Part shown: piece after piece, positions 20,308-22,703 of the stretch | Numbering within the stretch: the stretch's first letter is position 1 | Layout: each line of letters begins with the position of its first letter | Source: Arenimonas daejeonensis | GTDB taxonomy: Bacteria > Pseudomonadota > Gammaproteobacteria > Xanthomonadales > Xanthomonadaceae | Assembly (NCBI RefSeq): GCF_007993735.1 | Contig: NZ_CP042453.1 | Span: 558,001-622,000, forward strand | Length of the DNA: 64,000 nt | Direction: 5' to 3' | The notes under the pieces: generated by a model | Seen by the model: only the letters and a program-made list of their open reading frames with translations | Told to the model about the DNA's origin: nothing | Databases searched by the model: none | Program-made: the position numbers and the translations under genes

Positions 20308-20597
20308 TCAGCCTCCTGAAAGCGCCTGCATCACGTAGATTTCCGCGTCCTCGCGCACGGCGAGGGCGAAGTTGATTTCGGTTGCAGTGCGTCGCCGTCA
20401 ACGAACAGGGCGACGTGGCGGCGCAGTGCGCCGCGTTCGTCCAGCACGTAGCCGCGCAGGCCGGGATGGATTCGGAACAGTCCGTCGAGCACGGCGCCGA
20501 CGCTGGCACCCGGCACCTGCACTGCCACTTCGCCATCCCCCGCCGGCGCCGGCGTCAGCCAGCGCGCGAGGGCGGATGCGATCACGACCTTGGCCAT
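20308..20597 (-). CDS. MoaD/ThiS-like ubiquitin-fold protein, frameshifted
   Basis: About 96 aa after repair. Beta-grasp features: V-Q-V-P-G-A-S-V-G-A-V-L-D-G, HPGLRGYVLDERGALRRHVALFVDGD, and a C-terminal ALSGG. The terminal di-glycine is what MoaD and ThiS need for adenylation and sulfur transfer or protein conjugation. An A is missing at about 20381-20384; restoring it gives D-A-L-Q-T-E-I-N-F-A-L-A. No molybdopterin or thiamine genes are near, so a sulfur-carrier role in cofactor synthesis is unproven. It is upstream of the propeller gene in a two-gene operon. Confidence 0.8.
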
Positions 20598-20708
20598 GGT
20601 TGTGCTCCGGCGTGGGCGGCCAGCATAGGCCAGTCCCTGCGCCGATGCCATGCTCGCTGTGTGCTGGATTTGTGTACTCGCATAGTGCTGGATCTGGCGC
20701 CGTCATCA

Positions 20709-20780
20709 CCGGGGAAGTGAAGGGCTCTTTCTGCTCAGTGAAGCCTTTTATTTCGCAGAAAGAGCCCTTCACTTCCCCGG
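20709..20780 (+). repeat. Perfect 26-bp-stem hairpin, copy 1
   Basis: Stem 20709-20734 (CCGGGGAAGTGAAGGGCTC onward) is exactly complementary to 20755-20780, with a 20-base loop TCAGTGAAGCCTTTTATTTC. As RNA or extruded DNA this would be extremely stable. Confidence 0.92.
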
Positions 20781-21286
20781 CGCTGCCGGTACGTTCTACC
20801 CGGGCCGCTGATTGGAGGGCAGGTGTGGCATCGGCGTTTTGCATACGCGTGCGGCTTCGCGGGCTTCCGCATGTGCGATCTTTCCTGCGCATCACGCTTG
20901 GCTAAGACGGGCAAGGCGAAAAGCCAGCGACACGTCTATCGCGGGCGCGTTCCCTGAACGCGTCTGGTGCCTTCCGTGCGAGGTTGGGTTGTAGGCGAGT
21001 GCGGCGCTTCGTGCGAAAACCGGGCAGTTGTGTGCGGCGCATCGCGCCGCCCGCTCTTCGCCGCTGCGCGGCGGGTACTCCTTCCGGCCTAGCCCCGAAG
21101 GCACCAGACGCGTTCAGGGGAACGCGCCGCGACGTGGCGCGTGGTGGAGAAGGGCCTCGGCACGATTAACCGCCAGATCCGCAGGAAAGATCGCGCATGC
21201 GGAAGCCCGTACACATGCACGCGTATGCAAAACGCCGATGCCAGCAAGAACTCCGTCACGAAACCGGGCCGACCCGACCGACGGCG

Positions 21287-21358
21287 CCGGGGAAGTGAAT
21301 ACCTCTTTCTGCGAAATAAAAGGCTTCACTGAGCAGAAAGAGGTGTTCACTTCCCCGG
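21287..21358 (-). repeat. 26-bp-stem hairpin, copy 2 (inverted)
   Basis: Stem 21287-21312 pairs with 21333-21358 at 25 of 26 positions, the exception being a G-U pair. The 20-base loop is the exact reverse complement of the copy 1 loop. The mid-stem differs from copy 1, yet pairing is kept. Confidence 0.92.
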
Positions 21359-21405
21359 TGTCGACGGCCCAGATCCCCACGTGCAGAACGTCACAGCAAT
21401 GCCAA

Positions 21406-21432
21406 ACAAAAAGGCCCGCCGAAGCGGGCCTT
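21406..21432 (-). terminator. Rho-independent terminator of the desaturase gene
   Basis: Nine-base stem AAGGCCCGC / GCGGGCCTT followed on the minus strand by a T tract, 22 bases after the desaturase stop. Confidence 0.88.
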
Positions 21433-21454: not shown

Positions 21455-22703
21455 TCAGACCCGTGCCGGCGCCATCGAATAGCCCTTCAGGCGCGCCGAG
21501 AACTCCTCGAGCTGGCGGATGCCCGAGGCTTCGGCCTCGGCGCACCAGGCGCGCAGCGCCTCCATCTTGGCTTCCGCCTCGGCGCTCCTGAGCTCGTAGA
21601 TGCCGAGCAGGCGCGCACGGAACTCCATCAACCGCTGCGTATTCGGACGCTCCGCGATCCAGGCACTGAACCGCGCCCGGTGCGCCTCGTCCAGCCAACG
21701 GCCCTCACTGCGGAACGCACGACGCAATCGACCCGGCAGATCCTTGGCCTCCGCCTGCAGATGCGGCTTGAGCACCATCTGGAAATAGTCGGTCGCCACC
21801 TGCCAGCGATGCGCCATCACCGCACGCATCGTGTCCGCGTCGGGGACCTGGATGTTCGGGCGCACGTCGAGTTCCGGCGCCACGCGCAGCACCTTGGCCA
21901 GGCCGACGGCCTGCAGGCCGCGGATCACGGTCCAGCCGATGTCGAATTCGTACTTGCGCAGCGCGAACTTTGCCGAACTCGGGAACGCGTGGTGGTGGTT
22001 GTTGTGCAGCTCCTCGCCGCCCACCCAGAACGCCCACGGCGTCAGGTTGGTCGCGGTGTCGGCGGTGTCGAAGTTGCGGTAACCCCACCAGTGGCCCAGG
22101 CCGTTGATGACGCCGGCGGCCCAGAACGGGATCCACGCCATCTGCAGCGCCCACATCACGATGCCCGGGATGCCGAACAGGGTGAGGTTGATGGCCAGCA
22201 TCAGGATCGGGCCGAAAGTCGCGCGCGGCGTGTACAGCTTGCGTTCGATCCAGTCGTCCGGCGAACCCTTGCCGTACTTCTCCAGCATGTCCTTGTCCAG
22301 GCGCGCTTGGTAGAGCTCGACGCCGCGCCACAGCACCTGGTGGATGCCCCAAACGCGGGCTGTGCGGATCTTCCTCGGTCTCGCACTTGGCGTGGTGCTT
22401 GCGGTGCACCGCGGTCCACTCCTTGGTGACCATGGCGGTGGTCAGCCAGGCCCAGAAACGGAAGAAGTGCGTCAGCACCGGGTGGAAGTCCACGCCGCGG
22501 TGCGCCGCGCTGCGGTGCAGGTACAGCGTGGTGGTCATGATGGTGAGCTGCGTCACCACCAGGAAATAGACCGCCATCTGCCAGTAGCTGGCCTGCGTGA
22601 AGCCACGCGCCAACCAGTCGAACAGGTCCAGGACATGGGGAAAACTCCGTAAAAAACGGGCGCTTGGCCCGGTATCAGCTGCGGATGATGCCCTCGGCAC
22701 CAT
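21455..22703 (-). CDS. Acyl-CoA/fatty acid desaturase (membrane, di-iron), frameshifted
   Basis: About 394-416 aa. The three histidine boxes of delta-9-type desaturases are visible: HRSAAH, HRKHH and, in the other frame, HNNHH. Four hydrophobic segments surround them. The enzyme inserts a cis double bond into membrane acyl chains. The frame breaks near 22363-22367 in a CGCG run; adding two bases gives P-H-S-P-R-V-W-G-I-H-Q-V-L. The start is uncertain: the ATG at 22703 is in frame, but ATG 22636, eight bases after ACGGAG, would fit better if another base is missing just after it. Single gene with its own terminator. Confidence 0.85.

Follow-up and report, generated by a model that had tools for sequence, protein, structure and literature searches.

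The window analyzed here, a stretch of 64,000 nucleotides from the genome of Arenimonas daejeonensis (G000), carries a non-coding element that acts like a MITE and probably is one, with ISL3-type ends in part of its family. Our preferred reading, which we hold with somewhat more confidence than doubt, is that of a MITE-like non-autonomous transposable element of Arenimonas that is moved in trans by an ISL3-type transposase. A preliminary description of the window had offered a non-autonomous mobile element, a structured RNA gene pair or a chromosomal site as explanations. The first of these is borne out by 10 dispersed copies, by positions empty of it in one sister species and by target duplications that flank related copies.

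The element is built of two mirrored arms of about 330 bp, each with a long DNA hairpin at its end (Table 1), which supports the earlier account of two units of roughly 340 bp lying head to head. Its limits were set by alignment against other copies. A repeat search found inverted arms of 105, 68 and 45 nt within it, at 86, 88 and 80% complementarity, and the best 64-nt inverted match agrees at 59 of 64 positions, compared with a maximum of 42 in 200 block shuffles of the region. In other words, the nested inverted repeats are confirmed as genuine and lie far above chance. On recount, the hairpin at 20709-20780 mirrors that at 21287-21358 at 66 of 72 positions, and blocks 20826-20889 and 21180-21243 are identical at 57 of 64, just as first described. 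The innermost block needed a small correction, in that 20944-20974 mirrors 21097-21127 at 25 of 31 positions while the partner first given ran one base too far (to 21128), and the pairing of the outer edges is weak in the register first proposed (11/19). None of the nine open reading frames of at least 45 aa in the window copy is conserved among copies; the best of them is complete and free of stops in 7 of the 21 others. The concern that the inverted arrangement might be an assembly artifact is refuted by the copies in the assemblies of A. terrae, A. metalli and A. malthae. The sequence GGATCTGGCGCCGNC has five exact matches in G000, every one at an element or lone-hairpin end; a partner with the same tip in the element's own genome was accordingly rejected as a candidate, the five exact tip matches being such ends.

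Table 1. Features of the element and its surroundings (positions within the window).
Feature	Position	Strand	Remarks
Left neighbor, small ubiquitin-like (SAMP1/MoaD-like) protein	20331-20597	-	Longer ORF reading starts at 20651
Whole element, 687 bp	20690-21376	.	One of 10 full copies in the Arenimonas daejeonensis genome (G000)
Left tip GGATCTGGCGCCGTC	20690-20704	+	Common to the ends of other copies (alignment)
Left terminal hairpin	20709-20780	+	Stem 20709-20734 / 20755-20780, 26/26 paired; conserved loop 20735-20754
Inverted block 2, left copy	20826-20893	+	Inverted-repeat search; similar in both arm types of the compared subfamilies
Inverted block 3, left copy	20939-20983	+	Inverted-repeat search; holds small hairpin GCGCGTTCCCTGAACGCG
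Inverted block 3, right copy	21088-21132	-	Inverted-repeat search
Inverted block 2, right copy	21176-21243	-	Inverted-repeat search
Right terminal hairpin	21287-21358	-	Stem 21287-21312 / 21333-21358, 25/26 paired; loop 21313-21332
Right tip GGATCTGGGCCGTCG, read inward	21362-21376	-	Alignment with other copies
Intrinsic terminator of the minus-strand desaturase gene	21405-21432	-	Points at the element; stem end 34 nt from it, farther than in most copies
Right neighbor, C-terminal part of DesA-family desaturase	21455-22336	-	Profile match

The G000 assembly (3.03 Mb, single contig) holds 10 full copies, 663-763 bp long, and a lone hairpin (2856583-2856682), all dispersed; judging by its sequence, the latter seems to consist of the outer half of a left end joined to that of a right end, such as a deletion between the hairpins would produce. 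Across the family, copies range from about 640 to 880 bp. An exact loop pattern was matched in A. terrae R29, A. metalli CF5-1, A. malthae CC-JY-1 and an Arenimonas MAG, which assigns the family to Arenimonas, and viral contigs gave no exact match to either loop pattern. A covariance model of the terminal hairpin was positive in 14 of 27 Arenimonas genomes, three of them with one or two matches, and BLAST with one arm in 10 of the 27. Where matches were traced, they were the two strands of known element hairpins: 16 of 16 in A. terrae (G026; 7 contigs, 99% complete), all within four elements, and 16 of 16 in G009, while the 39 listed of 42 matches in G000 all fall on known element hairpins. 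Among 247 genomes of the bacterial family, eight were matched by BLAST, and the sole match outside the genus spans 26 bases. With stricter filters, the hairpin model matched 10 of 299 genomes of the order; five of these lie outside Arenimonas (E about 1e-7 to 1e-5), and at the one locus inspected in each (L153-L157) the match is a CGTCAT(C/T)CCCGCG hairpin with an unrelated loop (about 46-49 bits). These hairpins from other genera of the order, of the type CGTCAT(C/T)CCCGCG...GGGATGACGG, resemble CGTC-tagged palindromes arranged head to head. The loop pattern also occurs, in an Arenimonas-type hairpin, on contigs of two MAGs labelled Rhizobium and Burkholderiales (L094, L099), which are possibly mislabelled or mis-binned.

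Descent was studied in 22 complete elements (10 from G000, 4 each from G026 and G009, 2 from G007 and 1 each from G011 and G023), which also underlie the pair counts and the terminator count given below; partial copies and the complete copies of G005 and G017 were left aside. A tree of their 44 arms, from six genomes, resolves subfamilies, and those of G000 and A. terrae each contain arms of two distinct types, which means that whole two-armed units were copied. The hairpin, block 2 and block 3 are alike between arm types, and in these two genomes the intervening stretches are alike mainly within a type; no consistent excess of arm similarity within elements was seen. One element, Td, whose right arm aligns poorly, was excluded from the analyses of interior folding, strand bias and core phase, and the core-phase table comprises 19 elements, 11a and 23a being absent. 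The core is inverted relative to the ends in two of these 19, Gj and 9d, with the switch in or at the edge of block 2 (L031 compared with L074 and L080), and its orientation is ambiguous in 7b. Judging from the inverted cores in Gj and 9d, recombination in place seems to occur between the long inverted blocks. The hairpin tip is also partly duplicated directly outside some copies, namely 11a and, as a doubled GGATCTGGCGCCG, in G017 (L085 flanks, L112).

The strongest evidence on the mechanism is the combination of ISL3-type ends and target duplications. An outer 16-bp repeat, GGTTCTTCTCCCAAGT, lies external to the hairpin at ten places in six genomes (G009, G011, G005, G014, G015 and G012; at most 3 mismatches), and at this threshold it is confined to element-bearing loci among the 86 sequences scanned. 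Both outer repeats are visible at four loci, and there the 8-bp A/T-rich flanking bases are duplicated: as AACAAAAA at L160, the GAP site of G011 (exact, 8/8), as CAAAAAAA at L164, a 147-bp lone hairpin (exact, 8/8), again as CAAAAAAA at L166 (exact if the joint is shifted by one base), and as AAGAAGAA/AAGAAAAA at L077 (7/8). ISL3 elements generally produce 8-bp duplications and begin with GG. ISL3 transposases that span the whole PF01610 profile occur in G007 (three), G004, G001 and G010, with scores of 228-232 bits for the ISL3 insertion sequences of G007, G004 and G001. One copy from each of these three genomes measures 1311-1312 bp, carries a terminal repeat GGTTCTTC[T/A]CCCAA[C/G]T... and is flanked by 8/8 A/T-rich duplications like those of the repeat-bearing element copies. 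When ten element ends were compared with two insertion sequence ends, 18-22 of 24 positions matched, with one value of 15. The insertion sequence of G004 lies directly on the T-tract of a terminator, and that of G007, judged by eye, is likewise at one. An Enterococcus rearrangement is also reported to involve an ISL3 element with an 8-bp duplication (PMC11702846).

On our preferred reading, an ISL3-family DDE transposase, complete in only four of the 27 Arenimonas genomes, would join the element ends in trans, and the terminator T-tract would be the favored A/T target in these GC-rich genomes. The signal is restricted to part of the family. Of the 28 ends in G000 and A. terrae, none resembles the ISL3 repeat at p<0.05; the 22 complete elements have 16 further ends, and two of these do resemble it, both belonging to copy 9a. 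The repeat is thus recognizable in one of the 22, and the remaining repeat-bearing copies are partial or stand outside this set. Nor do the boundaries in G000 and A. terrae show a convincing duplication: an 8/8 flank repeat occurs in 4 of 14 elements, compared with 1.6 in shuffled pairings, and in none at both boundaries. The ISL3 repeat has 59 matches within 3 mismatches in G000 (17 for a reversed control), none of them at an element end, and complete ISL3 transposases are found in two of the 14 genomes with the hairpin and in two of the 13 without it. The window copy itself shows neither outer repeat nor target duplication, and we infer its ISL3 mobility from its relatives. The copies in G000 and A. 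terrae may be old, may use a diverged end (several have GCTCGCGG or GCGC in common just beyond the T-tract) or may have moved otherwise. A motif beyond the T-tract of some G000 copies (TTTCTTGCTCGCGG) is not enriched in the window, with 5 matches within 3 mismatches where 7.9 are expected. A search of G000 with PF01610 gave no ISL3 transposase, only a cross-hit to the desaturase beside the element; for this reason the window copy is probably old and stranded. Considering that G000 is listed as 86% complete, a transposase may possibly have been missed. The inner arms, in addition, hold conserved blocks beyond the needs of a passive MITE, which counts against the MITE reading. The cross-hit has a simple cause: the desaturase (21455-22336, minus strand) has a DesA/ISL3 alpha-bundle tail (NCBIfam NF049919), which makes it a false positive in the transposase search. 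Weak ISL3-profile matches in other Arenimonas genomes look like the same desaturase.

Within groups, divergence of the terminal hairpins is 0-4% in the loop and reaches 26% in the stem (Gf is absent from group I B in this comparison). At the two sites common to G000 and A. terrae, about 18% of the four-fold sites of the flanking genes differ (weighted), and the eight hairpins there show one mismatch, whereas by rough arithmetic about 37 would be expected without correction or selection. On our preferred reading the hairpins would be kept near-perfect as DNA, either because selection favors a cruciform or hairpin shape or because one stem half is copied onto the other, and a protein may contact them at the loop and base, which are conserved. 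It is conceivable, though rather improbable, that the hairpin pair is itself a selfish unit whose DNA shape is inherited and which is carried by any transposase end, ISL3 in some species and another in G000. The stems would then drift at about the neutral rate and be continually re-copied to near-perfect palindromes, the loop and base staying fixed.

We consider it unlikely that the element is a hairpin element which a Y1/HUH enzyme (RAYT or TIRYT) moves as single-stranded DNA; this would make it a giant relative of REP doublets (REPINs, TIRtrons). Hairpin ends with a conserved loop and tip, and the absence of a duplication in G000, speak for such a route, and passages of PMC3733652 describe RAYT-like genes with partly self-complementary terminal repeats and head-to-head CGTC hairpins. 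Y1_Tnp genes are present in 21 of the 27 Arenimonas genomes, G000 among them, and in 14/14 hairpin-positive compared with 7/13 hairpin-negative genomes (p 0.006), but the association weakens among genomes of at least 2.2 Mb (14/14 compared with 7/8). Moreover, the hairpin flanks no Y1_Tnp (PF01797) gene among the matches listed for eight genomes (G000, G026, G009, G007, G005, G011, G017 and G023), the nearest on the same contig lying about 5.5 kb away, which sets the element apart from TIRtrons and REPtrons. The GTAG tag is absent, CGTC varies in the hairpin alignment, and the 8-bp duplications beside related copies are unlike single-strand transposition.

Copies occupy a characteristic position in the genome. 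An intrinsic terminator points at an end within 60 nt in 19 of the 22 complete elements, compared with 19 of 2000 random points in a control drawn anywhere in the window, including spots that are not downstream of genes. In total there are 22 terminator-facing ends, 18 of which lie at 11-26 nt (34 nt for the window copy). With genes called by a codon-score script, convergent genes flank 6 of the 10 G000 copies, compared with 5 of the window's 48 gaps (p 0.002), and none of the 10 lies between divergent genes. In A. terrae, two copies sit at positions that are also occupied in G000 (Gi=Ta and Gj=Tb, the rhlE and suhB-secF sites), while the other eight G000 positions have no detectable copy there: at those of Ga, Ge and Gh, A. 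terrae has short intergenic regions without an element, although the element-proximal G000 bases are partly unaligned, and at that of Gg the gap is filled by other sequence. Shared occupancy takes several forms. The rhlE site has copies in two species. At suhB-secF, three species have a copy and a fourth has a lone hairpin; two have just a terminator, one more genome has an unrelated element built to the same plan, and others have different sequence. At the GAP-gene site, G000 and G011 have a copy and A. terrae and G023 have none.

Together with the preference for convergent genes, this shared occupancy is what would be expected of a chromosomal site maintained by the host, such as an insulator or a terminator booster lying between convergent genes, which ordinary recombination has spread. 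We regard this as quite improbable: the chromosomal site of the preliminary description fails in the main on the eight positions empty of a detectable copy in A. terrae, with two common to both species; no hairpin match occurs in 13 of the 27 Arenimonas genomes; the duplications beside related copies, that at the GAP site of G011 included, indicate transposition; and terminators presumably lie in convergent gaps as well.

The same hairpins suggest which molecule is under constraint. RNA drift normally leaves many G.U pairs. In 44 sequences with 26 stem pairs each, 1121 of the 1140 ungapped cells hold a Watson-Crick pair, and the rest are 13 A.C, 1 G.T and 5 other mismatches; RNAalifold found both-sided changes at 27 of 36 pairs, whereas one-sided changes number seven cells, of which five are at a loop pair. 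Because wobble intermediates are this scarce, the stems appear to be maintained as DNA, and the pattern points to a constraint that acts on DNA. The lean of 13 A.C to 1 G.T, read inward, is a hint that stems from about a dozen events. Arm interiors covary little, except for the small block-3 hairpin. Counted as distinct events, arm-to-arm mismatches are about as often G.T as A.C in each of the blocks (p at least 0.3), while the raw counts are lopsided once (block 3, subfamily II, 2 compared with 19). A helix between the arms in RNA was considered and rejected, given the lack of strand bias in distinct events and of a consistent excess of similarity within elements.

That the element is a structured RNA gene, or a pair of such RNAs, disseminated in some unknown way, therefore seems very improbable: it does fold very stably as single-stranded RNA (-501 kcal/mol, z -26 against 20 shuffles, with z -29 against 20 shuffles in a second fold), its hairpins have a conserved loop and compensatory changes, and their A.C mismatches read as G.U on the outward strand, but the near-absence of G.T from the stems, the even arm-to-arm events, the zero Rfam matches at gathering score in the window, the lax matches in six loci (mainly to microRNA-type hairpins, all under the gathering score) and terminators that by eye can face either arm type weigh against it, and with it against the RNA gene pair first suggested.

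Returning to the reading as a MITE-like element moved by an ISL3-type transposase, we compared it with known classes of repeats. Compared with the ISL3 insertion sequences of Arenimonas, the element encodes no PF01610 transposase, or any other protein, and the resemblance is seen in the outer repeat alone, which is unrecognizable in the window copy. Bacterial MITEs (RUP, NEMIS, ERIC, Bcr1 and Nezha; PMC3733652, PMC10969869) are likewise non-coding and intergenic, have inverted repeats and are moved in trans. The element shares with them its lack of coding capacity and its dispersed copies at non-homologous sites (10 in G000, 22 complete ones compared in 6 genomes). However, MITEs measure 70-300 bp according to PMC3733652, compared with about 640-880 bp here, and the two mirrored arms with ordered conserved blocks, the 72-nt covarying hairpins and the inversion of the core between the arms are unlike them. 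In these four respects (its size, its mirrored conserved arms, the covariation of its hairpins and the inversion of its core) the element stands apart. REP/REPIN doublets and CGTC head-to-head palindromes are likewise inverted hairpin pairs between genes, often convergent ones, but REPs span 20-40 bp (PMC3733652), whereas the hairpins here are about 72 nt long and bracket a core of about 450-700 nt, CGTC occurs in only part of the 44 hairpins, and related copies have 8-bp duplications. TIRtrons, according to PMC3733652, are families of self-complementary repeats, many in dimers or clusters, with S. maltophilia among the hosts. Among the matches listed in the literature searched (Arenimonas repeats, MITEs and ISL3, subscription journals falling mostly outside its scope), no such element was found. 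The layout matched no Rfam family and fits in full the definition of none of the repeat classes tested. The family offers a natural record of how long palindromes persist near-perfect in a bacterial chromosome, and it suggests that ISL3-type ends land on the T-tracts of terminators, which are scarce stretches of A/T in a genome rich in GC.

Two further observations concern neighboring and similar sequences. In the window, the left neighbor scores 32.4 bits against NCBIfam NF041918, under the cut-off of 60, and the desaturase region to the right (21455-22703, minus strand) is apparently split, with a probable N-terminal part upstream in another frame, through either a frameshift or an assembly error. 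In genome G002, a sequence-unrelated element of about 840 bp with the same plan occupies the suhB-secF site (L113 511-1350 / L140; G002:C12:32873-33712). It has inverted terminal hairpins with loops TCCGCGTGGCTC/GAGCCGCGAGGA, an ISL3-type end is not evident by eye, and it has 40 BLAST matches in its own genome (pieces, on both strands, self included). If the hairpin pair were indeed a selfish unit of inherited shape, this family would be a convergent or very ancient member of a mobile class defined by shape.
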